From positions 62,001 to 126,000 of the forward strand of contig QOZQ01000001.1 in assembly GCA_003576695.1 (NCBI GenBank): DNA of 64,000 nt. Direction: 5' to 3'. A program made the translations under genes and the position numbers. This DNA is from Taklimakanibacter lacteus (GTDB taxonomy: Bacteria > Pseudomonadota > Alphaproteobacteria > Rhizobiales > Aestuariivirgaceae). A model generated the notes under the pieces. It did no database searches. It had not been told where the DNA came from and saw nothing but the letters and a program-made list of their open reading frames with translations. Of the stretch, positions 14,771-49,486 are shown piece after piece (positions within the stretch are counted from its first letter, which is position 1; the number at the start of each line of letters is the position of its first letter).

Positions 14771-14791
14771 ATACTTTAGGTCTAAAATAAA
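14771..14791. promoter_or_regulatory. candidate regulon operator, upstream of transporter/thiolase operon
   Basis: The site contains TTTAG, two bases, then CTAAA, flanked as ATAC and AATAA. It matches the site at 24214-24234 (opposite orientation) at about 16 of 21 positions and resembles those at 47632 and 49465. It sits upstream of the binding-protein gene on the minus strand. Confidence 0.55.
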
Positions 14792-14891
14792 ACCCCCGCA
14801 AGGGCAGGCGCATTCCCTCACTGGCGCGTTTCCTATCGCCAAAGTCGAGCAACCCCGGATCGGGTCCGGGGCAAGCTTTGGCGGGAAGCGC

Positions 14892-16460
14892 TCATTTGGC
14901 CAGCATCTTCGCCAGCATGAAACCCGACCCGGCGCCGACACCGGCGCCCGGCCAGGTCGAGGCGCCGACGAGATAGAGTCCCTCGACCGGCGTTTTGTAA
15001 CGCGACCATCCGGCCACCGGCCGGAACAGGAAATTCTGGCTCAGATGATGGCTGCCGCCCAGATTGTCGCCGCCCAAGAGATTGGGATTCTCGCTTTCGA
15101 GATCGAGCGGCGAGAAGACGGCGCGGCCCAGGACCTTGCCGCCGAAGCCCGGCGCATAGGATTCGAGAATGCCCATCACCCGGTCGGCATAGGCTTCCTT
15201 GACCGCGGCCCAGTCGGTGCCGGTGATCCGGTTCAGGGCATCGCCGCGAATAGAGGCCGGAACGACGCGCACCTGCAGCTAGAGAATGTGCTTACCTTCC
15301 GGCGCGCGGCTCGGGTCAATGGCGGTGGGCTGGCCCACCACGACGACCGGCTCTCCCGGCAGCAATCCGGCCAGCGCCTCATTATATGTACGGCTCATCA
15401 TGTCGAGCGAAGGGGCGAGATGGACATAGGCGAAGCGCTTGAGCTCCTCTCCGGCCGTCCAGTCAGGCAGATCCCCGCAAGCGATGTGGATCATCATGGT
15501 GCCGGGGCCGGGCCGGAAGCTCTTCATGCGCTGGTCGATCTCTGCATTGCCGCTGCCGCCCGGCAACAATCTGCCGAAGACAGTCTGCGGGAGCGCATTG
15601 GCGATCACCGCGCGCTTTGCCGTGAATATGCGGCCATCAACCAGCGTGACACCCGCGGCCCGATTGCCGTTCCGGTCGATGCGCAGGACCTCGGCATCGA
15701 GATGGATCTCGCCGCCCAGCTCCTGCAAATAGCCGGTCAGCGCCTTGATCATGACATCGGCGCCGCCTTTGCCCAGCGCCATGCCGAAAGCCTGGTCGGC
15801 CATGGCTTCGAGATAGGGGAAGAGCGCGCCCCCCGCTATATCGGGTGAGAAATCGAGATGCATGCCCCAGGCGGCGAGCGTCGCCTTGATCTTCCCGGAC
15901 TCGAAATTCTGATCGAGGAAGGCGCGGGGAGACGACACGAGCAGCCGCAGTGTGTCGATGATCCATGAGAGACCTTGCGCGCGCCAGGCTTTCCAGCCGA
16001 TCGACAGGAGATCACGCGAGGGCATCGGGCTGCCGAGGAGCGAGAATATATGCGGCGCGTCGCGGCCGAAGCTCTCGCTCATGCGCCGCCAGGTCTCGCC
16101 ATCCGAGGCTGAGAGAGACGTGGCGCGGGCAATGTTCTTCGTCCTGTCCTGCGAGACGCCGAACCAGCTCCGATCGGCGAAAGGCGTGGCGAAGCAATCA
16201 CTGGCGCCGGCGAAGGCCAGTCCATGCCGCATCAGCGCCTCGCCATGCAGGCGCATGAAGGATGAGCCCGCGAAGAGGCCCAGATTCATGGCGAAGAGGT
16301 CATGGCGGAAGCCGGGAAGCGTCACCTCCCGCGTCTGGACAGCGCCACCCGGCATCTTGTTGCGCTCGAAGACGCCCACCTTCCAGCCGTGCCTGGCCAG
16401 ATGAACCGCCGCGGCCAGGCCATTATGGCCGCTGCCGATAATGATGGCGTCATAGCTCAT
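14892..16460 (-). pseudogene. phytoene-dehydrogenase-like FAD oxidoreductase with in-frame amber codon
   Basis: Reading from the ATG at 16460 gives an NAD(P)/FAD oxidoreductase (GSGHNGLAAAVHLARHGW, residues 9-26; GGGAV-like FAD region PGGAVQTRE). The frame stops at TAG (complement of CTA, 15279-15281) and continues in the same frame to 14892 with the family C-terminus (GASTWPGAGVGAGSGFMLA). In the neighbouring paralogue at 17654-19234 the matching residue is Trp (PEGAAIL-W-LQ versus PEGKHIL-stop-LQ), so a single TGG to TAG change explains the break. Without the stop it would be about 522 residues, normal for the family. It could be a recent inactivation, a sequencing error or a suppressed codon. 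Confidence 0.8.
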
Positions 16461-16475
16461 GCATTTCCTTCCCAG

Positions 16476-16500
16476 GGCATATACTGGCATATGCATATAA
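16476..16500. promoter_or_regulatory. AT-rich palindrome in divergent promoter region
   Basis: GGCATAT occurs twice in direct orientation (from 16476 and 16486) and overlaps the perfect palindrome ATATGCATAT (16489-16498). It lies just upstream of the FAD oxidoreductase start at 16460 and faces the cyclase gene at 16669. It is a candidate operator for the MarR protein encoded at 19239, by position only. Confidence 0.35.
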
Positions 16501-16590
16501 TCTGTCCATGAGATTCCTCTGCAAAGGGAATTATGGCCAAATGTTACTTGCAATTGCATGCTTTGGGCATAGGATGCGGGCATAGGTTTG

Positions 16591-16638
16591 GCGCGTGATC
16601 GGACGGAAAACCGGTATCCCCTTTTCCTGATCACGCGC
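16591..16638. repeat. palindromic element with GAAAACCGG core (family D, copy 1)
   Basis: Perfect 10-base arms, GCGCGTGATC (16591-16600) and GATCACGCGC (16629-16638), enclose a core with GGAAAACCGG and CTTTTCC. This matches a short repeat scattered in many Hyphomicrobiales genomes; a second relative is at 33481-33525. It lies in the leader of the cyclase-family gene. Confidence 0.7.
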
Positions 16639-16668
16639 TGAATTAAAAAACCGCAGCGGAGGAGCAGG

Positions 16669-17454
16669 ATGGCGCAGAAAGATCTCACTTCATTGGCCGA
16701 AGCCCTTTTGTCGGGATCCGTCGAGGTCATCGATCTCTCGGCCCCTCTCGGCCCCGACACGCCCTTGATCAAACTGCCGCCCGAGATCGGCAAGAACACG
16801 CCCAAGATCGAGGTGCACAATATTTCCAACTATGACCAGAACGGCCCCTTCTGGTCATGGAACTGGCTCAAGCTCGGTGAGCATTCGGGCACGCATTTCG
16901 ATGCGCCGGTGCACTGGATCTCCGGCAAGGATTATCGCGACGGCTCGACCGACAAGATCCCGGCGAAGAATTTCGTCGCCCCCGCCAATGTCATCGACTG
17001 CAGCGCCGAAGCGAAGAAGAACCCGGATTTCCTGCTCTCGGCCGATGGCGTGCGCGCCTGGGAGAAGAAGCATGGCGATATCGCCAAGGGCACATGGGTG
17101 CTGATGCGCACCGACTGGTACACGCGCAATGGCAGCGAGAAGGATTTCCTCAATGCCGATGACAAGGGGCCGCATTCGCCGGGCCCGACTGCCGACTGCA
17201 TCGAATATATATTGTCGAAAGGCGCCATTGGCTGGGGCAGCGAAACGGTCGGCACCGATGCGGGCTCGGCCGGCGGCATGACGCCGCCTTTCCCGGCCCA
17301 TACCCTGATGCACAAGTCGAACCGCTACGGGCTCGCGAGCCTGTGCAATCTCGACAAGCTGCCGCCCAAGGGCGCGATCCTGATCGCCGCGCCGCTCAAG
17401 ATCGTCAACGGCACCGGCAGCCCGTTGCGCGTCCTGGCGCTGGTCGCGCGCTGA
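16669..17454 (+). CDS. cyclase family metal-dependent hydrolase (isatin hydrolase / kynurenine formamidase fold)
   Basis: A 261-residue protein with the family metal-binding motif HSGTHFDAPVHW (near residue 70). Members hydrolyse amide or lactam bonds using Mn or Zn: KynB cleaves N-formylkynurenine, isatin hydrolase opens isatin to isatinate. The length, about 260 residues, is nearer isatin hydrolases than the shorter KynB proteins (about 210). GGAGGAGCAGG precedes the ATG. Neighbours are FAD oxidoreductases and a MarR regulator, then an indolepyruvate-type oxidoreductase. No other formamidase gene accompanies kynU and kynA at 51-53 kb, so it might fill that step. Family is secure; the exact substrate is open. 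Confidence 0.85.
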   Translation: MAQKDLTSLAEALLSGSVEVIDLSAPLGPDTPLIKLPPEIGKNTPKIEVHNISNYDQNGPFWSWNWLKLGEHSGTHFDAPVHWISGKDYRDGSTDKIPAKNFVAPANVIDCSAEAKKNPDFLLSADGVRAWEKKHGDIAKGTWVLMRTDWYTRNGSEKDFLNADDKGPHSPGPTADCIEYILSKGAIGWGSETVGTDAGSAGGMTPPFPAHTLMHKSNRYGLASLCNLDKLPPKGAILIAAPLKIVNGTGSPLRVLALVAR

Positions 17455-17465
17455 GAAATTTAGTT

Positions 17466-17625
17466 CCCCTCTCCTGTTGCGAAGCAATGGGAGAGGGTGC
17501 CCGGAGGGCGGGTGAGGGCTCTTTGCCTCAGCAAGGAACATTCGTTGAGACTAGAGCAGACTTCACGAAAGAGCCCTCATCCGGCCGTTGGCCACCTTCT
17601 CCCATGCTGCGCACGGGAGAAGGGG
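17466..17625. repeat. double-hairpin intergenic element (family B, copy 2)
   Basis: A 160-base element of the same plan as 13026-13182: end hairpins CCCTCTCC to GGGAGAGGG and CCTTCTCCC to GGGAGAAGG, with the inner inverted pair GGGCTCTTT and AAAGAGCCC. It sits between the cyclase gene and the second FAD oxidoreductase. Confidence 0.85.
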
Positions 17626-17653
17626 AAAGAGAGGAGAGACTCTGGAGCACAGC

Positions 17654-19234
17654 ATGGCCGATCCTGACTATGTGATCGTCGGCAGCGGCATCAATGCACT
17701 GGTCGCGGCGGCCTTGCTCGGCCGCAAGGGCAAGCGCGTGCTGATCCTCGAGCGCAATGAGCGGATCGGCGGCTGCATCCGGACCGAGGAGATCACGGCA
17801 CCTGGCTATATCCATGATGTGATGGCGACGACCTTCGTCCTCTTCATCACATCGCCTGCCTATGCCGCACTCGCCGCCGATCTCGGCAAGCATGGGCTCG
17901 ATTTCTGCCATACGGATCACCCGTCAGGCGTGCTTCTGCCGGATGGGCGATCGGTTGTCCTCAGCATGAAGCGTAGCATCAATGAAGCGGCCTTCGATCA
18001 GCTCGCATCGGGTGACGGCGCCCGGCATGCCGCCGATGTCGGCGGGATCGAACGCAACGCGCCTTTGCTCTTCGCGCTGCTCGGCGGGCAATTGTGGAGC
18101 TGGCCGACGGCGAAATTGCTGGCACGCGAAGGCTGGAAGAGGGGGCCGCGCGCGCTCGCCCAGTTCTTCGGCGAGGCGCTGGTCACGGCACGCGCCTGGC
18201 TCGAAGCGAGTTACCGGTCCGATGTCACGCACGCATTGTGGGCGCCCTGGGTGCTGCATACGGGGCTTGGGCCCGAGAGTGCCTACTCCGCGCAGATCGC
18301 CAAGGTCATCGCCTTCGCGCTCGAAGCGGCGGGGGCGCCCATCGTCAAGGGCGGCGGACAGAAACTGCTCGATGCCTTTGCCGCCATGATCGGCGCGGCA
18401 GGCGGCGAGATCAGGACCGGAGCCGAAGTCGCAAGCCTGCTGCCGGGCAGCGGCGGCAGCGTGCGCGGCGTGCGGCTTGCCGATGGCAGCGAGATCACCG
18501 CCGGTTCCGGCGTCATCTGCTCGGTCACGCCGAACCAGCTCTATGAGCGCCTGCTCAGGGACTTCGCCGTGCCGGACGACCTCAAGCAGGCGGTGCAGAG
18601 CTATCGCTATGGCAAGGGCAATTTCCAGCTCCATTACGCGCTGAAGGCGAGGCCGCAATGGATCGCGGCCGGCCTCGACAAGGTGGCGCTGCTGCATCTG
18701 ACGCCCGGCCTCGATGGCGTGTCGAAAGCGGCGAACGAGGCCGAACGCGGCATGCTGCCGGAAGTGCCCACGATCTGTGTCGGCCAGCCGCATGCCCTCG
18801 ATCCGAGCCGCTGCCCGGAAGGGGCGGCGATCCTGTGGCTGCAGCTGCCGGAAGCGCCGCGCCATCTCAAGGGCGATGCGGCGGGCAGGATCGTGGTTCC
18901 GCCGGACGGCAAATGGACGGAGGACGTGCGCGAGGCCTATGCAGACCGCATCGAAGCGATCCTCGCCCACCACATCGGCAATTTCAGCGAGATCAAGCTC
19001 AAGCGGCGTGCCTATTCGCCCGCCGATCTCGAAGCGATGAACATCAATCTCGTCGGCGGTGATCCCTATGGCGGCTTCTGCGGCATCGACCAGTCCTTCC
19101 TGTGGCGGCCGTTCAAATCGAGCGTCAATCACCGCACTTTCATTCCCAATCTCTATCATATTGGCGCCTCCACCCATCCCGGTGCCGGTCTCGGCGGCGG
19201 ATCGGGCTTCATGCTGGCGCAAGCTTTGAGGTGA
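17654..19234 (+). CDS. phytoene-dehydrogenase-like FAD-dependent oxidoreductase
   Basis: A 526-residue flavoprotein. The N-terminal dinucleotide fold (VIVGSGINALVAAALLGRKG, residues 7-26) is followed by ERNERIGGCIRTEE, and the C-terminus carries the conserved HIGASTHPGAGLGGGSGFM FAD-binding segment. Such enzymes desaturate or dehydrogenate hydrophobic or alicyclic substrates. It is a paralogue of the broken gene at 14892-16460. The ATG at 17654 is preceded by GGAG; the frame extends into the repeat upstream but that part is non-coding in style. The MarR gene begins 4 bases after the stop. Substrate unknown. Confidence 0.85.
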   Translation: MADPDYVIVGSGINALVAAALLGRKGKRVLILERNERIGGCIRTEEITAPGYIHDVMATTFVLFITSPAYAALAADLGKHGLDFCHTDHPSGVLLPDGRSVVLSMKRSINEAAFDQLASGDGARHAADVGGIERNAPLLFALLGGQLWSWPTAKLLAREGWKRGPRALAQFFGEALVTARAWLEASYRSDVTHALWAPWVLHTGLGPESAYSAQIAKVIAFALEAAGAPIVKGGGQKLLDAFAAMIGAAGGEIRTGAEVASLLPGSGGSVRGVRLADGSEITAGSGVICSVTPNQLYERLLRDFAVPDDLKQAVQSYRYGKGNFQLHYALKARPQWIAAGLDKVALLHLTPGLDGVSKAANEAERGMLPEVPTICVGQPHALDPSRCPEGAAILWLQLPEAPRHLKGDAAGRIVVPPDGKWTEDVREAYADRIEAILAHHIGNFSEIKLKRRAYSPADLEAMNINLVGGDPYGGFCGIDQSFLWRPFKSSVNHRTFIPNLYHIGASTHPGAGLGGGSGFMLAQALR

Positions 19235-19238
19235 TAAG

Positions 19239-19739
19239 ATGGTCGGACGCTTCGGAACCGCGCTGCTCAAACCATCCAATGCCGATCAGGACGCCATCCC
19301 CTCGATCGGCGAGATCGGGCTCAATCATTTCGCGCCCTATCTGATCAACCGCATTTCGGCGCGCTGGAATGCCGATCTGCAGGAAGCGCTGAAGCCCTTC
19401 GACCTGACCACCGCCAAGATGCGCACGCTCGCCGTGCTGTCGATCACGCCCGGCATGACGGCCAACGACCTGGCGCTGCACACGATCACCGAGCAGTCGA
19501 CCATGAGCCGCACGCTCGATGCGATGGAAGAGCAGGGGCTGGTCAAGAGCCGGCCACGCAAGGGCGATCTCAGGGTGCGCGAGGTCTATCTGACGGAGAA
19601 GGGCCGGCAGCTTTTCGCCGAATTCTGGCCCTCGATGTACAAGCGCTATTCCGACATGTTCAACGGTGTGAGCGAGGCCGAATATGAGGCGTTCATCTCG
19701 ACCCTGCACAAGATGCTGCAGAATGTGAGCCAGGGATGA
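19239..19739 (+). CDS. MarR family transcriptional regulator
   Basis: A 166-residue winged-helix regulator. The helix-turn-helix lies around residues 70-95 (MTANDLALHTITEQSTMSRTLDAMEEQGL) and the wing follows (KSRPRKGDLRVREVYLTEKG). GAGGTGATAAG before the ATG also spans the stop of the FAD oxidoreductase gene, so the two are co-translated. It likely senses an aromatic compound and controls the adjacent FAD oxidoreductase/cyclase genes. It is one of three MarR-like regulators in the window, so which one binds the shared operator sites is unresolved. Confidence 0.88.
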   Translation: MVGRFGTALLKPSNADQDAIPSIGEIGLNHFAPYLINRISARWNADLQEALKPFDLTTAKMRTLAVLSITPGMTANDLALHTITEQSTMSRTLDAMEEQGLVKSRPRKGDLRVREVYLTEKGRQLFAEFWPSMYKRYSDMFNGVSEAEYEAFISTLHKMLQNVSQG

Positions 19740-19780
19740 TGAAACTCATAAGCGGTCTTGCACACCTCTTTGTTTCATTT

Positions 19781-20007
19781 CCCCTTCTCCCGTCCGAAGG
19801 ATGGGAGAAGGTGCCCGACCTTGCTTCGCCGAAGCGGAAGTTATCTGCTTTGTCGGGGCGAAGCCTCGGCTTCGCGAAGGCAAGAGGGCGGATGAGGGCT
19901 CTTTCTCGAAGTACGCGAGACTCCAAAAGGCTTAGCCCCTTGCTGGCAAAGAGCCCTCACCCGGCCTTCGGCCACCCTCTCCCATTGCTTCGCAACGGGC
20001 GAGGGGG
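19781..20007. repeat. expanded family B element (copy 3), with extra hairpin to 20050
   Basis: This 330-base gap (19740-20069) contains a family B element of about 227 bases. Compared with copies 1 and 2 it carries an extra insert of about 70 bases beginning CTTGCTTCGCCGAAGCGG; the same insert begins in the copy at 63861. A separate short hairpin CCTTCCCC/GGGGAAGG is at 20029-20050, 19 bases before iorA. No gene is seen here. Confidence 0.8.
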
Positions 20008-20069
20008 AAAGTTGGAAATAGCTCGCCACCTTCCCCGCAGAGGGGGAAGGATAAGATAGGACGACCCCC

Positions 20070-22232
20070 ATGGCCGAACGATCCTTCGCGAAAGAAGTCC
20101 AGCAGCTCAAGATCGGCGCCGGCGAGGAATTCCGCGGCGAGGGCATCCTTGCCATCACCAAGGCGCTCCTGCAATGCGGCGTCGGCTATGTCGTCGGCTA
20201 TCAGGGGGCGCCCATCTCGCATCTCATGGATGTGCTCGCCGATGCGCAGGACATATTGGGCGATCTCGGCGTCCATTTCGAGGCGAGCGCCAGCGAGGCG
20301 GCGGCGGCCGCGGCCCTTGCCGCGTCGGTCCACTATCCGATCCGTGGTGCGGCCACCTGGAAATCGACGGTCGGCACCAATGTCGCCTCAGATGCGCTCG
20401 CCAATCTCTCCTCGGGCGGCGTCACCGGCGGCGCCCTCATCATCGTCGGCGAGGACTATGGCGAAGGCTCCTCGATCATGCAGGAGCGCAGCCATTCCTT
20501 CGCGATGAAGTCGCAGATCTGGCTGCTCGATCCCAAGCCCAATCTCGAATCGATCGTGAAGGCGGTGGAAGACGGCTTCGAATTGTCGGAAGCGACCAAT
20601 ACGCCGGTCATGCTCGAGGTGCGCATCCGCTCGTGCCATGTGCATGGCCGCTTCATCGCCAAGGACAATCAGCGCCCGCAGATGTCGGTCAAGGACGCGC
20701 TCGAGGCGCCACGCCGCGACACGCAGCGCATCGTGCTGCCGCCCGCCTCCTTCCTGCATGAGCAGGAGAAGATCAGGAAGCGCTGGCCGGCGGCGATCGA
20801 GTTCATCAAATCGCGCAAGCTCAATGAAATGGTGGGGCCGAAACGCGGCGGCGTCGGCATCGTGCTGCAGGGCGGCATGTATAACAGCGTCATCCGCGCG
20901 CTGCAGCGGCTGGGCCTTGCCGATCTCTATGGCTCCTCGATGGTGCCGCTCTATATCCTCAATGTCACCTATCCGCTGGTCGATGACGAGTTCCTCGCCT
21001 TCTGCAAGAACAAGGACGCGGTGCTGGTGGTCGAGGAAGGCCAGCCCGATCATCTCGAACAGGCCTTCGGCCATATGCTGCACAAGGCGGAATCGCTGAC
21101 GCGCCTGCATGGCAAGGACTATCTGCCGATGGCCGGCGAATATACCGGCCAGGCGATGCTCGACGGCCTGTCCGGCTTCCTGCGCGACAAGGCGCCGGAG
21201 CTGTTGAGCGCCAAGATCAGACTGCCCAATGCACCGACGGCACCGCCCGATGTCTCGCATCTCGCGCAAGTGGTGCCGATGCGCCCGCCCGGCTTCTGCA
21301 CCGGTTGCCCGGAACGGCCGATCTTCTCGGCCATGAAGCTGGTGGAGAGGGAACTCGGCCAGCATCATGTCGCCGCCGATATAGGCTGCCATCTGTTCTC
21401 GATCATGCCGCCCTTCAATATCGGCGCCACCACCATGGGCTATGGGCTGGGGCCTGCTTCGGCGTCGGCCTTCAATGTGCCGGCGAAGAAGCGCTCGATC
21501 GCCATCATGGGCGATGGCGGCTTCTGGCATAATGGTCTCGCCTCGGGCATCGGCAATGCCGTCTTCAACAAGAATGACGGCGTCATCCTGGTGGTCGACA
21601 ATTACTATTCGGCGGCGACCGGGGGCCAGGACATCCTCTCGTCCCGCGCCAGCAACAAGACGCGTTCCACCCGGCATCCGATCGAGGATGCGGTGAAAGG
21701 GGTGGGCGTCAACTGGGTGCGCCGGATCGACCGCACCTATGATGTGAGCCTCATGCGCGACACGCTGCGCGAGGCGCTGACCACCGGGGAGAAGGGGCCC
21801 AAGGTCATCGTCGCGTCATCGGAATGCATGCTGAACAAGCAGCGGCGCGAGAAGCCGCTCATCGCCAAGGCGATCCAAGACGGCAAGCGCGTGGTGAAGC
21901 CCCGCTTCGGCGTCGATGAGGATGTGTGCACCGGCGATCATGCCTGCATCAGGCTGTCGGGCTGCCCGTCGCTCAGTGTGAAGCAGCTGGACGATCCGCT
22001 GCGCGACGACCCGGTGGCGGCGATCGACCAGTCCTGCGTCGGCTGCGGCAATTGCGGCGAGGTGGCGGATGCGGCGGTGCTGTGTCCCTCCTTCTACCGC
22101 GCCGATGTGATCAGCAATCCCAGCCGGCTTGACCGGTTCCTGGCCGGCTTGCGGCAGAAGGTGATCGGCTTCCTGCAGCGGCGGCGCGACCGCAAGTCGC
22201 TCATCTTCGCCAAAGCGGAGGCGGCACCATGA
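20070..22232 (+). CDS. iorA: indolepyruvate:ferredoxin oxidoreductase, alpha-type (thiamine/Fe-S) subunit
   Basis: A 720-residue 2-oxoacid:ferredoxin oxidoreductase subunit. It has an N-terminal pyrimidine-binding domain, the IorA motif PGFCTGCPERP (near residue 406) and a thiamine diphosphate motif MGDGGFWHNGLASGIGN (near 480). The C-terminal ferredoxin domain starts near 617. Its first cluster reads CTGDHACIRLSGCP, where the usual second Cys of CxxCxxC is Asp; its second cluster is complete (CVGCGNCGEVADAAVLCP). The enzyme oxidatively decarboxylates an aryl 2-oxoacid to the acyl-CoA with ferredoxin as acceptor. Indolepyruvate is the family substrate; isatinate is an alternative suggested by context. 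The stop overlaps the iorB start. Confidence 0.88.
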   Translation: MAERSFAKEVQQLKIGAGEEFRGEGILAITKALLQCGVGYVVGYQGAPISHLMDVLADAQDILGDLGVHFEASASEAAAAAALAASVHYPIRGAATWKSTVGTNVASDALANLSSGGVTGGALIIVGEDYGEGSSIMQERSHSFAMKSQIWLLDPKPNLESIVKAVEDGFELSEATNTPVMLEVRIRSCHVHGRFIAKDNQRPQMSVKDALEAPRRDTQRIVLPPASFLHEQEKIRKRWPAAIEFIKSRKLNEMVGPKRGGVGIVLQGGMYNSVIRALQRLGLADLYGSSMVPLYILNVTYPLVDDEFLAFCKNKDAVLVVEEGQPDHLEQAFGHMLHKAESLTRLHGKDYLPMAGEYTGQAMLDGLSGFLRDKAPELLSAKIRLPNAPTAPPDVSHLAQVVPMRPPGFCTGCPERPIFSAMKLVERELGQHHVAADIGCHLFSIMPPFNIGATTMGYGLGPASASAFNVPAKKRSIAIMGDGGFWHNGLASGIGNAVFNKNDGVILVVDNYYSAATGGQDILSSRASNKTRSTRHPIEDAVKGVGVNWVRRIDRTYDVSLMRDTLREALTTGEKGPKVIVASSECMLNKQRREKPLIAKAIQDGKRVVKPRFGVDEDVCTGDHACIRLSGCPSLSVKQLDDPLRDDPVAAIDQSCVGCGNCGEVADAAVLCPSFYRADVISNPSRLDRFLAGLRQKVIGFLQRRRDRKSLIFAKAEAAP

Positions 22233-24213: not shown

Positions 24214-24234
24214 ATTACTTCAAACCTAAAGCAT
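24214..24234. promoter_or_regulatory. candidate regulon operator 1, upstream of VOC/monooxygenase operon
   Basis: The site begins ATTACTTCAA and ends CTAAAGCAT. It matches the site at 47632-47652 at 17 or 18 of 21 positions in the same orientation, and the site at 14771 in the opposite orientation. It lies about 100 bases before the VOC gene. Confidence 0.6.
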
Positions 24235-24246
24235 TGTCCCAAAATT

Positions 24247-24265
24247 AGTTTAGTTCTATAGTAAT
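24247..24265. promoter_or_regulatory. candidate regulon operator 2, adjacent to the first
   Basis: This weaker copy, AGTTTAG followed five bases later by ATAGTAAT, matches the palindrome at 49465-49486 at about 14 of 19 positions. It is centred about 32 bases (three helical turns) from the first site, a spacing that would allow cooperative binding. Confidence 0.4.
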
Positions 24266-27300: not shown

Positions 27301-27301
27301 C

Positions 27302-27724
27302 ATGAACGATATCAAGAAACATACGGCGCCGCCGCTGCATCGCATCCTGCAGCCGCCGGGATGGCCGAGGCCTCGCGGCTATGCCAATGGCATATTGGCG
27401 CAAGGCCGCATGATCTTCACGGGCGGGCTCGTCGGCTGGAACGAGGAGGGCGTGTTCGCGGAAGGCTTCGTGCCGCAAGTGCGCCAGACGCTTCTCAATA
27501 TAAAGGCGGTGCTGAAGGAAGCGGGCGCCAGGCCCGAACATCTGGTGCGGCTCACCTGGTATGTCACCTCGGTCAAAGAATATCTGGCCGACCCCAAGGG
27601 CCTGGGGGGCGCCTATCGCGAGATCATCGGGCCCTATTATCCGGCCATGGCGACGGTCGAGGTGACGCGGCTCGTCGAGGAGAAGGCGCTGGTCGAGATC
27701 GAGGCGACGGCGGTTATTCCTTAG
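27302..27724 (+). CDS. RidA/YjgF family enamine/imine deaminase
   Basis: A 140-residue RidA-fold protein (FTGGLVGWNEEG, VRQTLLNIKAVLKEAGARPEHLVRLTWYV, YYPAMATVEVTRLVEEKALVEIEATAV). Such proteins hydrolyse reactive enamines or imines to ketones and ammonia. The product of the preceding monooxygenase/reductase, a 2-amino-cyclohexene-carboxyl-CoA, is an enamine, so a RidA here would plausibly release the ring nitrogen as ammonia. It starts two bases after the monooxygenase stop and ends the operon; a family A repeat follows. The family is certain, the substrate inferred. Confidence 0.88.
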   Translation: MNDIKKHTAPPLHRILQPPGWPRPRGYANGILAQGRMIFTGGLVGWNEEGVFAEGFVPQVRQTLLNIKAVLKEAGARPEHLVRLTWYVTSVKEYLADPKGLGGAYREIIGPYYPAMATVEVTRLVEEKALVEIEATAVIP

Positions 27725-29430: not shown

Positions 29431-29457
29431 GACACCCTCGCGGCTGGAAGTCCGATC

Positions 29458-41879: not shown

Positions 41880-41884
41880 CGGCT

Positions 41885-43957
41885 CTACCCCTTGTCGGCG
41901 AATCTCCGCTTGGCGTCGGCAAGCTGCTTCAATAGGCCCGAGGGTTTCCAGAACCAGGTATCGTCGCGGGCCAGCGCCTCGATGCGGCGCAGGACTTCGG
42001 CCAGGCCCATCTCGTCGGCCATGTGCATCGGGCCGCCGCGCCAGCGCGGGAAGCCATAGCCATTGACCATCACCACATCGATGTCGCCGGACCGCAGGGC
42101 AATGCCCTCATCCAGGATGCGCGCGCCTTCATTGATCATGGCGAGGAGGATGCGGTCCATGATCTCATCCGAGGTGAAGGACCGCGATACGATCCCCTTG
42201 CGCGTGCGCTCGGCGGCGATGATGGCGAGGGCTTCGTCATCGGGTACCGGCACGCCGCCTGAATAGTTGTAATAGCCGCGACCGGCCTTGCGGCCGAGAT
42301 GGCCGCGCTCGCAGATGAGATCACCGATCTCGACATAGCGCTCGCGTGGATCGCGGCGAGGCGCCAGCGCCCTGCGGTTGGCCCAGCCGATATCGAGGCC
42401 CGCCATGTCCTGCATCTCGAACACGCCCATGGGGAGCCCGAAATTCTTGAAGGCGGCATCCACTTCAGCCGGCGCCGCCCCATCCTCGATCAGGTAATCG
42501 GCCTGCTTGCGATAGGCGGAAAGTATGCGGTTGCCAATGAAGCCGTCGCAGACGCCGGCTCTGACCGCGATCTTGCCCAGCCTGCGGCCCAGCGCGAAGC
42601 CGGTCGCTACGGCTTCGGGTCGCGCTTTCGGCGGCACCACGACCTCGAGCAATTTCATGATGTGAGCGGGCGAGAAGAAATGCAGGCCGATGACGCGTTC
42701 CGGCCGCGCCGTCACGGCGGCGATGGCGCCGACATCGAGATAGGAGGTGTTGGTGGCGAGCACCGCCTCCGGCTTCGCGACCTTGTCGAGCTCGCGGAAG
42801 ATCGCCTGCTTGACCGCGAGATCCTCGAAGGCGGCTTCGATGACGAGATCCGCCTCGGCCAGATCGGCATAGGAGGCGCTGGCATGCAAACGGCCCGCGG
42901 CGATGGCATCATAGTCCGCCTGCGCGAGCTTGCCGCGTTCGACCGAAGCCTTGAGCAAGCCCAAGGCGCGGTTCCTCGCGCCTTCCGCCGAAGCTGCGTC
43001 GCGCTCGATCAAGGTGACGTTCATGCCGGCGAGCAGGGCAGAAGCGGCAATGCCGGTGCCCATGAGCCCGCCGCCTACGACACCCAGTCCCGCGACCGGC
43101 AGAGGCCTGGCATCGGCCTCGGGTATCTTGCCGATCTCGCGTTCGGCGAAGAAGATGTGGCGCAGTGCCCGCGCCTGCCCGGAGTTGCGCAATCCGGCGA
43201 AGATCTCCGCCTCGCGCGCCATGCCCTGTGCAAAATCCATATGAGCGGTCTCTGCCAGGAGATCGAGAGCGCTGACCGGGCTGATCTGGCCGCGGGCGCG
43301 GGTGGCGATCTGCTGGCGCGCTTTGGCAAAGATTTCAGGCGCCGTGGCTGCCGGCGGGCGATCCGAAAGGCGCGGGATCGGCGCTGCGATCTTCTCCATC
43401 AGGAGCTTGCGGGCGCTGCCGAGGAGATCACCTTCGGCCACGGCATCGGCGATGCCGAGCTTCAAGGCTTCGGCCGCATCGACACGGCGCCCGCTGGTGA
43501 TCATGTCGATCGAAGCTTGAATGCCGATGAGACGCGGCAGGCGCTGCGTACCGCCGGCGCCCGGAATGATGCCGAGCGTCACCTCCGGCAAGCCCACGAA
43601 AGCGCTTCTGTGCATCACGCGATAATGGCAGCCGAGCGCCAGCTCGAAGCCGCCGCCCAGCGCCGTGCCATGAATGGCGGCGACGACAGGTTTGTCGAGC
43701 GCCTCGATGCCGGCGATCACATCGCGCAGCATGGGCGGCGCCGGCGGCTTGCCGAATTCGCGGATATCGGCGCCGGCGACGAAGGTCCTGCCGGCGCAGC
43801 TGAGGATGATGCCGCGAATGGAGGCATCCGCCGCAATCTTCGCCATTGAATCGGCGAGGCCCTGCCGCACCGCCTGCGATACGGCATTGACCGGCGGATT
43901 GTCGATGGTGATGACCGCAATGCCATCCGCATGGGAGAGCGATACCGGTGTCGTCAT
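41885..43957 (-). CDS. FadJ-like enoyl-CoA hydratase / 3-hydroxyacyl-CoA dehydrogenase
   Basis: A 690-residue bifunctional beta-oxidation enzyme. The N-terminal crotonase domain ([43 protein letters not shown] with the catalytic Glu) is followed by an NAD-binding domain ([15 protein letters not shown], near residue 290) and the dehydrogenase domain ([16 protein letters not shown]). It hydrates an enoyl-CoA and oxidises the 3-hydroxyacyl-CoA. The start ATG at 43957 begins [16 protein letters not shown]; farther upstream lies a repeat. It is the last gene of the SDR-MarR-ECH-ACAD operon and probably acts after ring reduction and cleavage of anthraniloyl-CoA. Confidence 0.9.
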
Positions 43958-44020
43958 GGTGTGGTGCCCGCCATTGCAGGACAGAAGCATGAGTCGGGCG
44001 CGAATACTCTCCGTCCATTC

Positions 44021-44120
44021 GTCATCCCGGCGAAAGCCGGGATCCAATAAACTGTCGCAAGGCGGGCAATCCTTCCGACTTGGAAAGAATTCAGGGGATC
44101 CCGGCTTTCGCCGGGATGAC
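44021..44120. repeat. element with perfect 25-bp inverted ends (family C)
   Basis: GTCATCCCGGCGAAAGCC (then GGGATCC) at 44021-44045 is perfectly inverted at 44096-44120, enclosing 50 unrelated bases. Such GTCATCCCGGC...GCCGGGAT palindromes are widespread interspersed repeats in proteobacteria. It separates the acyl-CoA dehydrogenase and FadJ-like genes. Confidence 0.85.
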
Positions 44121-44174
44121 GGAAACTGGGTCGGATGCAGATTTGCATGGAGCGATCTTAAATGATTCCAAATG

Positions 44175-45344
44175 TCAGGTTTTGCTTGGAAGAAGCGAGC
44201 GGGCGATGATGACCTTCTGAACGGCGCTCGCCCCTTCATAGATGCGCAAGGCGCGGATCTCGCGATAGAGCTGCTCCGGCCGCGATCCCGACTTGACGCC
44301 GAGACCGCCGAAAAGCTGCACCGCCGTGTCGATCACGCGCTGCGCCGCTTCGGTGGCGGCGTATTTCGCCATGGCGGCTTCGCGGGTGATGCGCGCCGCC
44401 CCCTGGTCCTTGGTCCAGGCGGCGCGATAGACCATGAGCGCCGAGGCATCGACATCGAGCGCCATGTCGGCGAGCTGGCCCTGAACCATCTGCAGATCGG
44501 CGAGCACGCCCCCCATCATGCGCCTTGTCGCGACATGCACCAGCGCTTCATCAAGTGCCCGGCGTGCAAAGCCCAGAGCGGCGGCGCCGACGGTGGAGCG
44601 GAAGATATCGAGCGTCGCCATGGCGATCTTGAAGCCGTCGCCTGCCTTGCCGATGCGGTTCTCGATGGGAATGCGGCAGTTCTCGAAACGCAGCCGCGCC
44701 AGGGGATGGGGCGAGATCGTCTCTAGCCGCTCGGCAATGGTGAGCCCCGGCGTGTCGGCCTCGACCATGAAGGCGCTCAGGCCCCTGGCGCCCGGCGCCT
44801 CGCCGGTGCGGGCGAAGACGACATAGCGATCGGCAATGCCGCCATTGGAAATCCAGGTCTTCTCGCCCTCGATCACCACATGCGCGTTGCCATCGGGCCG
44901 GGCGGCGCAGGCGAGGGCTGCGACATCCGACCCGGCGTCCGGCTCGGACAGCGCGAAGGCCGAGATCGCCTTGCCCTCGGCAATGGGCGGAAGCCACTTG
45001 CGCTTCTGCTCCTCCGTCCCGAATAAAGTGACGGGGCCGGTGCCAAGGCCCTGCATGGCGAAAGCGAAATCGGCAAGCCCGTCGGCATGGCTCAGCGTCT
45101 CGCGGATGAGGCAGAGCGAGCGCACATCGAATTTCTCGGCAAGCCCGCCATAAGGCGCCGTCACCGAATAGCGCAGCAGCCCGTGCTCGCCCAGCGCCTT
45201 GACCAGCTTCCGGCAGGTGCCGTCGGGATCGTGATGATCGACGAGACCCGGCACGATGGACCTGGCGAAATCGGCGACGTCAACCTCGAGCGCTCGATGC
45301 TTCTCTTCGAAAAAAGGCCAGGCAAGGAAGCTCTTGTCACCCAT
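44175..45344 (-). CDS. acyl-CoA dehydrogenase
   Basis: A 389-residue acyl-CoA dehydrogenase: helical N-domain, FAD/substrate strand region [17 protein letters not shown] and [19 protein letters not shown], then the C-terminal helical domain with [21 protein letters not shown]. The usual catalytic carboxylate would lie at the IYEGAS segment. It oxidises an acyl-CoA with electron transfer flavoprotein. The ATG at 45344 ([17 protein letters not shown]) is used; a family A repeat lies just upstream, in the gap from the enoyl-CoA hydratase gene. Confidence 0.9.
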
Positions 45345-45353
45345 CACATAATA

Positions 45354-45465
45354 CCCTCGTGCTGAGGTGCGAGCGAAGCGAGCCTCGAAGCATGATCCAG
45401 GCACAGAGGTTTTGCCGCCTGCCACCCTTCGAGGCCCGGCTGCGCCGGGCACCTCAGGGTGAGGG
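45354..45465. repeat. 112-bp double-palindrome element (family A, copy 3)
   Basis: It has the same length and palindromic ends as copies 1 and 2 (CCCTCGTGCTGAGG to ACCTCAGGGTGAGGG) with the inner hairpin GCCCGGCTGCGCCGGGC. It is inserted within the beta-oxidation operon between the acyl-CoA dehydrogenase and enoyl-CoA hydratase genes. Confidence 0.85.
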
Positions 45466-45493: not shown

Positions 45494-46327
45494 CTAGTCG
45501 CCCTTGAAGACGGGCTTCTGCTTCGCCGCAAAAGCCTCATAGGCGCGGCGGAAATCCTCGGTCTTCATGCACAGTGCCTGGGCGATGGCTTCCGCCTCGA
45601 CCGCATCATCGATGCTCATCGCCCATTCGGCCTGCAGCATCCGCTTGGTCACGCCATTGGCGAAGGTCGGGCCTTCGGCGAGCTGGCGCGCCAGCTTCAT
45701 GGCTTCATCGAGAAGGGAGGCCGGGTCGACGAGCCGGTTGAAGAAGCCCCAACGCTCGCCTTCGACGCCGCCGAGCGACCTACCGGTATAGAGCAGTTCG
45801 GAGGCGCGTCCCTGGCCGATCAAACGCGGCAACATGGCGCAAGCGCCCATGTCGCAGCCGGCCAGGCCGACGCGGTTGAACAGGAAGGCGACCTTTGCCG
45901 CCTCGGTGCCGAGCCTCAAGTCGGAAGCCATGGCGATGATGGCGCCCGCACCGGCGCAGATGCCGTCGATGGCGGAAATGATCGGCTGCGGGCAGGCGCG
46001 CATCGCCTTGACCAGATCGCCCGTCATCTCGGTGAAGCGCAGCAATTGCGGCACGCTCATCCGGGTCAAGGGCCCGATGATCTCGAACACATCGCCACCG
46101 GAGGAGAAATTGCCGCCTGACCCTGAGATCACGAAAGCATGAACGCTGTCATCCTTGCGGGCGGCGGCGAAAATGGCGGTGAGCTCGTCATAGGAGTCGA
46201 AAGTGAGCGGGTTCTTCTTCTCCGGCCGGTTGAGGGTGATCTCGGCAACGCCGCTCCTGACGGTGAGCAGCACATGCTGCGCCTTGTAGGCGGCAAGGGG
46301 CGGAAGGATGGCGTGACTTCGGTTCAT
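45494..46327 (-). CDS. enoyl-CoA hydratase/isomerase family protein
   Basis: A 277-residue crotonase. It has the oxyanion-hole segment [11 protein letters not shown] and the [21 protein letters not shown] block, with [21 protein letters not shown] in place of the usual EV-L-G-P-GG-QRL, so the standard second catalytic Glu is not obvious. Such variants act on cyclic or aromatic-derived CoA esters. The ATG overlaps the MarR stop. It probably works on the reduced ring of anthraniloyl-CoA. Confidence 0.88.
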
Positions 46328-46848
46328 GTCTCCTGCCTCGCCATGATGCTCTGCCTTGTCGAATCCTTGAGCGTGGCGAGCAGCTCCATCAGCCTGTCGA
46401 TGTCCTTTTGCGGCATGCGCTCGAAATAATTGGCGATCCAGTCGCTGTGGACCCTGGCCATGCGGCGGAATTCGCGCCGGCCCTTGTCGGTGAGGCGGAT
46501 GACCTGGGCGCGGCGGTCGCCGCTCGCCGTGGTGCGGGTGATGTGGCCCGATTTCACCAGGCCTTCCACCAGGCTGGTGATATTGCCGGCCGAGACCATC
46601 AGGCGCTTCGACACTTCGCCCAGCACAAGGCCTTCATCGCTGCGGTCGAGCTGCGCCAATATGTCGAAGCGCGGCAGGCTGAAATCGAATTCGGACATGA
46701 GATGGCGGCGGATGTCGTTCTCGATGAGCCGCGAGCAGGAGAAAAGCCTGAGCCACAGGCGCAATTCCATGATGTGATCGGCGGGCCGCGCCGATACGGT
46801 CGTTTCGGCGTCGATCCAGACCGGGTCCTGCTCTTCCGGATGGCTCAC
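46324..46848 (-). CDS. MarR family transcriptional regulator (candidate regulator of the anthranilate regulon)
   Basis: A 174-residue MarR protein with a winged helix ([20 protein letters not shown], about residues 93-112; then [20 protein letters not shown]). It starts at GTG 46848, overlapping the SDR stop, and its stop overlaps the enoyl-CoA hydratase ATG, so it is embedded in the operon. MarR proteins of this kind often bind the CoA thioester of the aromatic substrate. It is the leading candidate for binding the CTTTAG-type palindromes found upstream of four operons in the window. Confidence 0.88.
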
Positions 46849-47591
46849 AGCTCACCTCCGGCCACGGTGATCGCCTGGCCGGTCACGGCGGAAGCCCCGT
46901 CCGAGCACAGCCAGAGCACGGCATTGGCGACTTCCTCCGGCGTGATCAGGCGGCCCGAGGGATTGGTGCTGGCGAAATGATCGATCGCCTTGTCGCTGCT
47001 GAGGCCGGTCTTCTCGGCGATCCGGTCGGCGGCGCGGGCGATGAGATCGGTGTCGGTATAGCCCGGGCAAATCGCATTGACGGTGATCTTCGTCTTGATG
47101 AGCTCGGCCGCCAGCGCCCGCGTCAGCCCGATGAGCGCATGCTTGGCGGCGCAATAGGCCGAGACATAGGCATAGCCCTTGAGGCCGGCGATCGAGGCGA
47201 TGTTGACGATGCGGCCGCTTGGCTGCGCCATCATGCCGGGCAGAGCCGCGCGTGACGCGGTGAAAGCACTCTCAACATTCACCGCCATCATGCGGCGGAG
47301 GAGATCGAGCTTCGTCGCCGCGAAGGGCGCCGATTCGGCCGCACCGGCATTGTTGACCACGATATGATAGGGGCCGGTCTCGGCAATGGCGGCGCTGAGG
47401 GCGGCCTCATCCGTGACATCAACGGCGCGCGAGTTGCGGGCGACGCCGTCCTTCACGGCCTTGGCCAGCGTTTCGCCTGAGCGGCCCATGATGGTGACAT
47501 CATAGCCCTTGGCGCTGAGCCCCATGGCTATGGCGCGCCCGATACCCCGGCTGCCGCCTGTGACAAGTGCTTTCTGGTCCGGCATTCCCAT
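46845..47591 (-). CDS. short-chain dehydrogenase/reductase (SDR)
   Basis: A 248-residue classical SDR with the cofactor motif TGGSRGIGRAIAMG, NNAG (VVNNAGAAES), catalytic Ser region NIASIAGLKGY and the YxxxK active site (SAYCAAKHALIG). It oxidises or reduces an alcohol/ketone, probably the 5-oxo or hydroxy group of a ring CoA intermediate. Three in-frame starts are possible (GTG 47600, ATG 47591, ATG 47585); 47591 is chosen without strong ribosome-site evidence. It opens the SDR-MarR-ECH-ACAD-FadJ operon. Confidence 0.88.
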   Translation of the reverse strand: MGMPDQKALVTGGSRGIGRAIAMGLSAKGYDVTIMGRSGETLAKAVKDGVARNSRAVDVTDEAALSAAIAETGPYHIVVNNAGAAESAPFAATKLDLLRRMMAVNVESAFTASRAALPGMMAQPSGRIVNIASIAGLKGYAYVSAYCAAKHALIGLTRALAAELIKTKITVNAICPGYTDTDLIARAADRIAEKTGLSSDKAIDHFASTNPSGRLITPEEVANAVLWLCSDGASAVTGQAITVAGGEL

Positions 47592-47631: not shown

Positions 47632-47652
47632 ATTATTTCAAGTCTAAAGCAT
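47632..47652. promoter_or_regulatory. candidate regulon operator, upstream of SDR/MarR operon
   Basis: The site begins ATTATTTCAA and ends CTAAAGCAT. It nearly repeats the site at 24214-24234 and, inverted, aligns with 49465-49486 at about 15 of 19 positions. It lies about 40 bases upstream of the SDR start and just before the end of the LLM gene, which reads the same way. Confidence 0.6.
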
Positions 47653-47654
47653 CC

Positions 47655-48776
47655 TCATGCCGCAGCGACCCGCAGATCCTCGCGCCTCAGGCCCTTGTCG
47701 GCAAGGATCGGCAGCACCGTGTCGCGGAAATAGGGGAATTCCTCGACATAATCGACAAAGGACAGTGTCGTTCCCTTGAAGCCTGCCTCATGCAGCGCGA
47801 TGAGGCCATCCGCCACCTGCTCGGGCGTGCCGACGAGCGGGAAGCCGCCATGCCCGGCCGCCATGCGGTCGCGGATCAGGGCCAGGAGATCATGCGGGAA
47901 GGAATGCGCATGGGCGAATTGCAGGCGCACCAGATTGTCGACCGCTTCCCAGTCGGCATGCTCGCGGCCGAAATGCTCGAGATAATCCTTCGCTTCCTGC
48001 TCGCTCGGCCGGCAGACGACATGCGAGAAGGTGAGGACATCGACGGCTCGGCCATTGCCGCGGCCAAGCTCCTTGAGCTGCGCGATCTCGTCGCGCGAAC
48101 GGGCGAGATCGATGGCCGGGGTGAACAGGAAATGGGCGTTACGGGTCGCGAAATTGCGGCCTTCGCCCGAGCCTGCCGCATTGATGATGGGCAGCGGGCT
48201 CAAGGGCTTCGGCTCGCCCAAAACCTGCTTCAGCTGGAAATAGGTGCCGTTCCAGTCGAAGCTCTTCTCCTCCCGCCACAGCGCCTTGACGATGTCGAAC
48301 CATTCCTGCGCATAGCCGTAGCGGACCTCGTGCTTGTCGGGCAGCGTCAGGCCCAGCGCCTCATATTCGGGCTTGTTCCAGCCCGCCACAATATTGAGGC
48401 CGATGCGGCCATTGCTGATACGGTCGATGGTGGCGAGCTGCTTGGCCGACACCACGGGATGATTGGCGGCGGTATGAATGGTGGCGAAGACGGTGATGTC
48501 CTGCGTGTGGGCGAGAAGGCCCGCCGCCCAGGTGATCGTCTCCAGGACGTTGTGATGGAAATTCGTCTCGCCGCCATAGCCGATCCAGCGGGCGATCGGC
48601 AGCATGAAATCGATGCCGGCCTGATCGAGCAGGCGCGCCAGCTTCAGATTGTTCTCCCAGCTGTTGTCCCAGCGCTCGGCGACCTTGGTGACGGTCATGC
48701 CGCTCGAGCAATTGGAGGCGAAGGTGCCGAGCAGGAACTGATCCTTGTCGAACATGCGGTTGGGCGAGCGTGTCAT
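47655..48776 (-). CDS. LLM class flavin-dependent monooxygenase
   Basis: A 373-residue luciferase-like protein using FMN. It has the N-terminal family pattern FLLGTFASNCSSGMTVTKV and ARWIGYGGETNFHHNVLETI, with SNGRIGLNIVAGWNKPEYEALG in the middle, as in the RutA/alkane-sulfonate-monooxygenase-type group. It would hydroxylate or cleave a small heteroatom compound with reduced FMN supplied by a separate reductase. AGGAAG precedes the ATG. It diverges from the winged-helix gene at 48896. Its place in the anthranilate pathway is not clear. Confidence 0.85.
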   Translation of the reverse strand: MTRSPNRMFDKDQFLLGTFASNCSSGMTVTKVAERWDNSWENNLKLARLLDQAGIDFMLPIARWIGYGGETNFHHNVLETITWAAGLLAHTQDITVFATIHTAANHPVVSAKQLATIDRISNGRIGLNIVAGWNKPEYEALGLTLPDKHEVRYGYAQEWFDIVKALWREEKSFDWNGTYFQLKQVLGEPKPLSPLPIINAAGSGEGRNFATRNAHFLFTPAIDLARSRDEIAQLKELGRGNGRAVDVLTFSHVVCRPSEQEAKDYLEHFGREHADWEAVDNLVRLQFAHAHSFPHDLLALIRDRMAAGHGGFPLVGTPEQVADGLIALHEAGFKGTTLSFVDYVEEFPYFRDTVLPILADKGLRREDLRVAAA

Positions 48777-48811
48777 TGCCGGCTTCCTCCTGGTTTTGTT
48801 TATAGTTTATG

Positions 48812-48824
48812 ATAGAAAATCTAT
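48812..48824. promoter_or_regulatory. AT-rich inverted repeat in divergent region
   Basis: ATAGA and TCTAT flank AAA within a strongly AT-rich tract (48797-48838) between the divergent LLM and winged-helix genes. It is a candidate promoter/operator for both, and differs from the CTTTAG-type sites. Confidence 0.4.
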
Positions 48825-48895
48825 TATAAAATCGATATGGACGCAACCTGCGTGCTTGCGCCATCCTCCAGGTCCGGAGCAGGAGCAGACTCGCC

Positions 48896-49453
48896 ATGGC
48901 GCAGAAGAAGAAGCCGGAAAAGAAAAGCGGCGAGGGCCTCGACCGGCGCTGGCACCTGGCCAACACGGCCTTCGAGATCGAGGTGACGGAAGCGGAATAT
49001 TCGCTGATGCGGGCCTATGAGGGTTTCGGCCGCTGGCAGCAGGAATGCCTGGGCTCGGTGATCGAGCATGCGCTGAGCGGGCCGGAAAACGCGCTGCTCC
49101 ATATCATCCGCATGCATGACCGGGCGAAGAGCATCAAGGATCTCGCCTGGATGACCAATCGCGACGACATCCCCAATATCCAATACAGCCTGCGCAAGCT
49201 GATCAAAGCGGGGCTGGTGCGCCGTTCGGGCAGCGGGCGTGCCGGTGTCACCTATTCGGCGACCGAGCGCGGCGTCGCGGTCACCGACCATTATGCGAAT
49301 GTGCGCAAATCGCTCCTGGTCCAGGCATTGTCCAACGTGCCCGATTTCGACACAAGGCTGTCGGAAGCGGCGCGCACCTTCGAGCTGCTCACCGGCATCT
49401 ATGAGCAAGTGGCGCGCATCGCCGCCACGCATCGCCGGGTGAAGCGCGATTGA
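48896..49453 (+). CDS. winged-helix (MarR-like) DNA-binding protein
   Basis: A 185-residue regulator. A Lys-rich N-terminus precedes a MarR-like winged helix (LAWMTNRDDIPNIQYSLRKLIKAGLVRRSGSGRAG, residues 82-116), which is the predicted-MarR subtype with an unusually placed recognition helix. It precedes the CoA ligase operon by 73 bases and diverges from the LLM gene. It may regulate the LLM gene or the ligase operon. Confidence 0.85.
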   Translation: MAQKKKPEKKSGEGLDRRWHLANTAFEIEVTEAEYSLMRAYEGFGRWQQECLGSVIEHALSGPENALLHIIRMHDRAKSIKDLAWMTNRDDIPNIQYSLRKLIKAGLVRRSGSGRAGVTYSATERGVAVTDHYANVRKSLLVQALSNVPDFDTRLSEAARTFELLTGIYEQVARIAATHRRVKRD

Positions 49454-49464
49454 CATTGAAAGTC

Positions 49465-49486
49465 ATTACTTTAGAATTAAAGTAAT
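49465..49486. promoter_or_regulatory. perfect palindromic operator candidate upstream of ligase-kynU-kynA
   Basis: ATTACTTTA (49465-49473) and TAAAGTAAT (49478-49486) are perfect inverted repeats around GAAT. It is the best-formed member of the set also seen at 14771, 24214, 24247 and 47632. It lies 41 bases before the ligase ATG. Confidence 0.65.

Follow-up and report, generated by a model that had tools for sequence, protein, structure and literature searches.

A common 22-bp operator before operons of a predicted CoA-dependent anthranilate pathway in Taklimakanibacter lacteus and a MarR-family candidate for its repressor

A 22-bp operator before catabolic operons

The DNA analyzed here is a stretch of 64,000 nucleotides from Taklimakanibacter lacteus (positions 62001-126000 of contig 1; the genome comprises 5.78 Mb in 24 contigs), referred to below as the window. 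It contains five copies of one 22-bp operator, with a consensus of approximately ATTATTTTA(A/G)G-C(T/C)TAAAATAAT, in front of operons with a predicted role in the coenzyme A (CoA)-dependent degradation of anthranilate. A sequence-only reading had claimed palindromes at five places immediately upstream of these operons; direct reading found all five at the places given, and every gene assignment held. The coordinates below refer to a common 22-bp frame. Operator A (14770-14791, minus strand) lies before a transporter-thiolase operon, operators B1 (24214-24235) and B2 (24244-24265, both plus strand) before a monooxygenase operon, operator C (47632-47653, minus strand) before an operon that includes a MarR gene, and operator D (49465-49486, plus strand) before a ligase-kynU-kynA operon. 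The presence of B2 was borne out but not the earlier start at 24247, and the centre-to-centre distance from B1 to B2 is exactly 30 bp. Likewise, the likeness between the sites at 24214 and 47632 stood, but the hand count of agreement between B1 and C was 18 of 21 positions and not 17.

The operon downstream of A is headed by the gene for a family-5 solute-binding protein (SBP) of an oligopeptide-type ABC transporter (13192-14724), continues with ABC permeases and ATPases of the oppB/oppC/oppD/oppF type (9453-12999) and ends with a 3-oxoadipyl-CoA thiolase gene (8249-9451, within a frame open to 9631; TIGR02430 647 bits, cut-off 597), all on the minus strand. Downstream of the B pair, on the plus strand, are genes for a VOC (glyoxalase-fold) protein (24331-24924), a two-domain flavoprotein with FAD_binding_3 and Oxidored_FMN domains (24943-27300), which is a probable 2-aminobenzoyl-CoA monooxygenase/reductase, and a RidA-family protein (27284-27724; PF01042 70 bits, cut-off 27.3). 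Operator C precedes, on the minus strand, genes for an SDR oxidoreductase (46845-47585), a MarR-family regulator (46324-46848; Pfam MarR_2 39 bits, cut-off 27, and MarR 29.7 bits, cut-off 24.6), an enoyl-CoA hydratase (ECH, 45494-46327), an acyl-CoA dehydrogenase (ACAD, 44175-45452) and an enoyl-CoA hydratase/3-hydroxyacyl-CoA dehydrogenase fusion (HCDH, 41885-44239). Operator D precedes, on the plus strand, genes for a benzoate-CoA-ligase-family protein that is probably an anthranilate-CoA ligase (49527-51149; TIGR02262 398 bits, cut-off 375), the kynureninase KynU (51146-52381; TIGR01814 294 bits, cut-off 246) and the tryptophan 2,3-dioxygenase KynA (52174-53217; TIGR03036 414 bits, cut-off 391). 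The start codons of the SBP, thiolase, VOC and SDR genes were chosen by the analyst. Based on these gene families and on the known 2-aminobenzoyl-CoA monooxygenase/reductase described in the available part of PMC3534580, the pathway would run from tryptophan through kynurenine, anthranilate and anthraniloyl-CoA to 2-amino-5-oxocyclohexenecarboxyl-CoA and on into beta-oxidation, with substrate specificities that are predicted.

Palindromy alone was ordinary. At a half-width of 11, the five sites showed 6-9 of 11 complementary pairs, and D was the only operator among the 53 centres in the window that reached 9 or 10 of 11 pairs. The exceptional feature is one AT-rich sequence common to five sites in a window of 63% G+C. 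When a symmetric matrix was trained on four sites, the held-out site scored 26.4 bits for A (30.6 with the full matrix), 28.4 for B1, 27.4 for B2, 25.2 for C and 34.3 for D, and the held-out sites took ranks 1-5 of 63,979 positions. The best non-operator place in the window scored 8.5-9.8 bits across the five trials.

A scan of the whole genome with an 18-bp pattern at no more than one mismatch gave six places, namely A, B1, C, D, C12:101752 (16.7 bits) and C6:157270, and B2 appeared at two mismatches. A tight 22-bp pattern gave 7 matches compared to 0 for the control. Six of the 7 are the sites described here; the remaining one is probably C1:576274, with 3 mismatches to the pattern and a matrix score of 12.4 bits. 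The sixth strong site, C6:157270 (ATTATTTTAGTTATGAAATAAT, 29.6 bits), is located 6 bp ahead of the start codon of kynU2; this gene encodes a second kynureninase, which scored 237 bits with TIGR01814, just under the cut-off of 246. The kynU2 operon (L018:7769-14208, G000:C6) encodes the kynureninase, a luciferase-like monooxygenase, an aminotransferase, a branched-chain-type binding protein and two ABC ATPases, and its substrate is perhaps a substituted kynurenine. Thus, when it was asked whether the motif is equally common elsewhere, only one further strong site was found in the genome, and the proposed link between four operons is supported, but the operons number at least five with the kynU2 operon, which is outside the window. 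Weak matrix matches of 17-18 bits were found at C12:101752 and C20:88319, between long open frames, and at C23:309403, at the edge of one; these could conceivably be weak members of the regulon, but such scores are expected by chance in 5.8 Mb (per 1.48 Mb, control matrices gave on average 7.7 sites with a threshold of 16 bits and 3.0 with one of 18 bits). In the same scan, none of the three cyclase-family genes of the genome (PF04199, a family that includes bacterial arylformamidases) was found under a strong site, and the one at 16669-17454 scored 27 bits with the arylformamidase model compared to a cut-off of 223.

Conservation in congeners and in other genera

The operators were compared in four congeners (G001-G004). 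Operator A before the SBP gene, operators C and D, and the kynU2 site were each present in all four. The B pair was found with its 30-bp spacing in G001, G002 and G003, while the G004 contig begins inside the VOC gene. In G002 (L179:1480-2955) the B pair is duplicated, with one copy before the VOC gene and the other before the monooxygenase gene. With alignment gaps counted as not identical, identical columns at A amounted to 21 of 22 inside the operator compared to 36 of 133 outside (window and G002-G004), and at kynU2 to 19 of 22 compared to 51 of 116 (five sequences). In the C-D region, the counts were 39 of 44 inside and 46 of 246 outside in G002-G004 only, where gaps in two rows account for many of the columns outside. 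The contrast was weaker for the B pair (38 of 44 inside and 69 of 154 outside; window and G001-G003), as B2 sits in a leader that is conserved throughout. The retention of A upstream of the SBP gene across the four congeners and the score of the thiolase above the cut-off for 3-oxoadipyl-CoA thiolase support the earlier assignment of the transporter and thiolase to the pathway. A thiolase match was found in 3 of 80 loci from other bacteria (described below), and thiolase homologues (66-70%) follow a monooxygenase-SDR-ECH-ACAD-HCDH run in L099-L101 (Ensifer and Mesorhizobium).

In the window and in G001, a divergent gene pair sits between C and D, and each operator directly follows the stop codon of one of the pair. 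The pair consists of a luciferase-like monooxygenase gene (47655-48776, minus strand) and a gene for a winged-helix protein with an HTH_27 domain (48896-49453, plus strand). Between them lies a separate palindrome, TTTATGATAG-N5-CTATTATAAA (48806-48830, no strand), with one position different in G001, which is probably the module's own operator. In G002, G003 and G004 the pair is absent between C and D, and the ligase and SDR operons are arranged divergently, the D-C start-to-start distances being 54, 55 and 62 bp, respectively. The same pair (76% and 63%) is found elsewhere in G069, more than 0.5 Mb from the MarR and monooxygenase genes of that genome. A two-gene module thus lies between two operators, neither of which is lost. 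The simplest reading is that the pair was inserted into an ancestral divergent promoter; loss of the pair in G002-G004 is also conceivable.

In other genera, the best 80 of at least 590 loci found by a profile scan of genome contigs with an alignment of 22 MarR orthologues were used. These named loci were titled Mesorhizobium, Aminobacter, Ensifer, Bradyrhizobium, Microvirga, Bosea, Aurantimonas, Roseomonas and others. The window matrix found 203 sites of at least 18 bits, spread over 74 of these 80 loci (1.48 Mb). The 31 control matrices with permuted half-sites, which included permutations near the true motif, gave 3.0 sites on average and 35 at most. At 25 bits or more, there were 121 sites in 56 of the 80 loci compared to a control mean of 0.23 and a maximum of 6. 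Of the 203 sites, 191 lay no more than 350 bp upstream of a homologue of a window gene, and 12 had no assignment. By downstream gene, the tally was monooxygenase 72, SDR 69, MarR 39, ligase 38 and kynU 4, plus a single site for each of four others; a site between two divergent genes entered the tally for each of them, and the distance was measured to the start of the tblastn match rather than to the start codon. None of the 203 sites fell inside annotated homologues, which span 35% of the bases. The half-site read from the distinct sequences was A T T A (T/C) T T T A (A/G) G.

Among the 12 named loci with a kynU homologue, four had a site ahead of it, each of 20.1 bits (Bradyrhizobium L108, L109, L114 and L115). 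The kyn genes were also under a site in G093 (in an operon of alpha/beta hydrolase, kynA and kynU), G017 and G031. The sites are thus kept before orthologous operons in both congeners and distant genera. A shared regulon is supported, but its conserved core is the 2-aminobenzoyl-CoA pathway rather than a tryptophan/anthranilate pathway as a whole, and the kyn genes are a variable addition.

A second matrix was built independently of the window. For each of 63 homologues of the monooxygenase in the named loci, the 250 bp upstream were searched for the best AT-weighted palindrome. The matrix was made from the 31 distinct palindromes with at least 8 of 11 pairs, none of them from the window; the A+T weight was set by the analyst and the source loci had been selected for MarR. 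The five top places in the window were D (33.4 bits), A (30.5 bits), B1 (26.5 bits), C (25.3 bits) and B2 (23.4 bits), the next places scored only 9.3 and 2.4 bits, and the kynU2 site scored 31.6 bits. These findings indicate that the operators define a predicted regulon of the CoA-dependent anthranilate pathway, including two kynureninase operons and the transporter-thiolase operon.

The candidate repressor and its inducer

The palindromic operators precede the catabolic operons as well as the operon of the MarR protein 46324 itself. We consider it likely, with good confidence, that the five sites are operators of one repressor and that this repressor is the MarR protein encoded at 46324-46848, the best-supported candidate, as the sequence-only reading had proposed; the sites track its orthologues and often lie directly before its gene or operon. 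A structure model of the protein had a mean pLDDT of 85.7, and its order of helices and strands, read by eye, fits a winged helix. Residues G88, N89 and T91 were invariant in both orthologue alignments. Helix 87-99 of the model was taken as the recognition helix, and the invariance of these residues would suit a conserved operator. In the T. lacteus genome, the next-best match to this protein had 25% identity. A survey of relatives covered 100 genomes including that of T. lacteus, with statistics on the other 99 and with cut-offs set after the outputs had been seen. The 31 relatives with the MarR protein (E ≤1e-20) contained 101 tight-pattern matches compared to 30 control matches, and the 68 without it contained 178 compared to 175. 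The G012 genome encodes the MarR protein and has two strong sites, one of 28.5 bits immediately upstream of the MarR gene and one of 34.9 bits upstream of a gene for a binding protein, although no full-length monooxygenase was found in this 82%-complete draft.

Several observations weigh against this reading or narrow it. A full-length monooxygenase (E ≤1e-200) was found in 27 relatives, all of which also had the MarR protein, so that co-occurrence alone cannot name the regulator. The 80 MarR loci are not independent (29 are titled Bradyrhizobium), the 203 sites represent 131 distinct sequences, and 6 of the loci had no site at 18 bits. Of the other 8 kynU loci, 7 had no site within 350 bp ahead (best 11.7 bits) and 1 was cut off. 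The two-domain flavoprotein missed the nearest NCBIfam model, salicylyl-CoA 5-hydroxylase, with 1030 bits compared to a cut-off of 1078. Finally, at up to 3 mismatches the 18-bp pattern matched 60 places in the T. lacteus genome compared to 108 for the reversed control, that is, without enrichment; the genomic signal resides in close matches and not in the loose pattern.

This absence of genome-wide enrichment of the loose pattern, together with the imperfect palindromy of the single sites, speaks for a chance similarity of AT-rich promoter palindromes. Chance is nevertheless a negligible explanation, contradicted by the leave-one-out scores, the conservation in the 80 loci with its excess of 203 sites, the congener alignments and the independent matrix, and it was rejected. 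Two other proteins of the window might instead bind the sites. The 19239 protein belongs to the MarR family, is approximately 90% conserved in the congeners and is encoded between A and B, and it could act as an IadR-like, indole-acid-responsive regulator of the operators. This is improbable, since its own gene has no motif site in front of it and its homologues occur in 3 of the 80 named loci, of which 74 have the motif. The 19239 protein was rejected as being rarely linked to the motif and nearest to other solved MarR proteins (3cjn and 7kym, the latter presumably part of the auxin-regulator set). For the winged-helix protein 48896, the adjacency of its gene to operator D and its HTH_27 domain speak in favour, and the 4 relatives with a match to it (E ≤1e-30) had 14 motif matches compared to 2 in the control, although all 4 also carry a MarR protein of the 46324 type. 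That 48896 regulates A-D is very unlikely, a still fainter prospect than 19239: three congeners retain the sites without a close orthologue (G002, where the best match had 26% identity, and G003 and the 87%-complete G004, where there was no hit), a homologue was found in 1 of the 80 named loci at 38%, and the protein has the separate, different palindrome and, in G069, is encoded together with the luciferase-like protein at a site remote from the genes of the pathway.

With the MarR protein 46324 as the favoured repressor, a dimer would bind each operator and block RNA polymerase. Blocking of the polymerase is suggested because three operators overlap promoter-like -10 or -35 elements, as read by eye. 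At D, the promoter-like sequence TTGACA-N16-TAGAAT has its -10 element in the middle of the operator, and the TTGACA is kept in G002-G004. At C, TTGAAA is followed 18 bp on by TACTAT, and the -35 element is inside the operator. At kynU2, the operator ends with the -10 element of TTGCCG-N17-AATAAT, at a distance of 6 bp from the start codon. According to the proposed mechanism, the ligase would activate anthranilate, and anthraniloyl-CoA would then bind the MarR repressor and release the operators. Release would co-induce the monooxygenase/reductase, the enzymes of beta-oxidation and the thiolase together with the uptake system and the enzymes that convert tryptophan to anthranilate, and the repressor would also limit its own operon.

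The inducer is probably anthraniloyl-CoA, although the case comes solely from which genes are shared and from likeness to CouR and FerC, which is a further point against too firm a reading. Anthranilate or anthraniloyl-CoA is a likelier inducer than kynurenine because a site precedes the kyn genes in certain lineages only, whereas the genes that most often have a site in other lineages are those for the monooxygenase, SDR, MarR and ligase. It is possible, if rather doubtful, that the same MarR protein responds instead to free anthranilate or to a later, ring-reduced CoA intermediate; every regulon member found fits such an inducer, and some MarR regulators appear to bind the free acid, as reported for HcaR (PMC5487221). 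On the other side, regulators of CoA-dependent aromatic pathways such as CouR and FerC are described as responding to the CoA thioester (PMC5487221), and the ligase itself belongs to the regulon. The regulon provides a candidate sensor for anthraniloyl-CoA.

Relation to known systems and neighbouring genes

The regulon resembles, with good support, those of MarR repressors of aryl-CoA catabolism, with an unusual reach into tryptophan breakdown. As in the CouR, FerC and HcaR systems, in the portion of PMC5487221 available, a MarR repressor would control a CoA-dependent aromatic pathway with a CoA thioester as the probable inducer. The regulon holds an aryl-CoA ligase of family TIGR02262 together with the two-domain monooxygenase and beta-oxidation genes. 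It differs from those systems in that it serves an anthranilate/2-aminobenzoyl-CoA pathway, comprises several dispersed operons and includes tryptophan degradation. In a comparison of protein sequences, CouR (6c28) is a distant relative of 46324 (E 2.9e-6). The solved sequence nearest to 46324 was 3boq (E 7.6e-21, and 4.2e-32 with a profile), which is known here from its entry name only and which we take to come from Silicibacter pomeroyi. The layout of the 2-aminobenzoyl-CoA (abm) pathway, a two-domain flavin monooxygenase/reductase with a CoA ligase, is also present, with the substrate predicted.

The quinaldine regulators of Arthrobacter Rue61a share with this system a pathway through anthraniloyl-CoA, but in the accessible part of PMC3534580 they are PaaX-related and not MarR proteins, and belong to a plasmid-borne cluster of an actinobacterium. 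No PaaX family was among the Pfam hits of 46324. One of the quinaldine regulators is reportedly named MeqR2 and is said to respond to anthraniloyl-CoA. KynR likewise controls kyn operons; as described in the portion of PMC4349456 available, it is an Lrp/AsnC protein that is local to the kyn genes and senses kynurenine, whereas here the kyn operons carry the same operator as the anthranilate pathway that follows them. The Lrp/AsnC family was not seen in 46324, 19239 or 48896, and KynR was not searched for elsewhere in the genome. IadR (MarR_73) of auxin degradation in Variovorax is, in the part of PMC9613470 available, also a MarR repressor of a route ending in anthranilate, but it senses indole-3-acetate and acts at one locus, and the window protein nearer to that set is 19239 and not 46324. 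The match of 46324 to 7kfo was only at E 8.6e-5, so that 46324 is not close to IadR. An anaerobic iaa locus ends at 2-aminobenzoyl-CoA, according to the same partial text (PMC9613470). No described MarR regulator of a CoA-dependent anthranilate pathway was found in the accessible portions of the open-licence literature searched. For the aerobic, CoA-dependent breakdown of anthranilate, the present analysis offers an operator, a candidate regulator and a list of genes that apply to a large group of bacteria, most of them associated with soil or plants. The predicted regulon would tie together the breakdown of tryptophan, indole acids and anthranilate, and would place an oligopeptide-type transporter and a thiolase in the pathway.

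Between operators A and B, the region 16669-23761 holds the cyclase-family gene, a second flavoprotein gene, the IadR-like MarR gene (19239) and genes for subunits resembling indolepyruvate ferredoxin oxidoreductase (IorAB), which suggests an indole-acid route into anthranilate. The window matrix found no motif operator before the 19239-IorAB genes. Homologues of the genes in this region neighbour the MarR and monooxygenase genes in Mesorhizobium L095 and L100, where weak matching sites of 19 bits (L095:2444 and L100:2928) lie before a flavoprotein gene beside the IadR-like cluster. Next to operator A, a flavoprotein gene of the amine oxidase/phytoene-desaturase-like type (14892-16829, minus strand) is broken by an in-frame stop at 15279-15281, with homology continuing past the stop; the gene is open in G001, G003 and G004, and in G002 there is an apparent frame change elsewhere in the gene. 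Beyond the RidA gene, a gene of the trimethylamine methyltransferase family (MTTB; 27895-29469, minus strand, 524 amino acids) has as its neighbours genes for a TetR protein (29558-30235) and for a GCV_T/FAD-oxidoreductase fusion (30333-32771).

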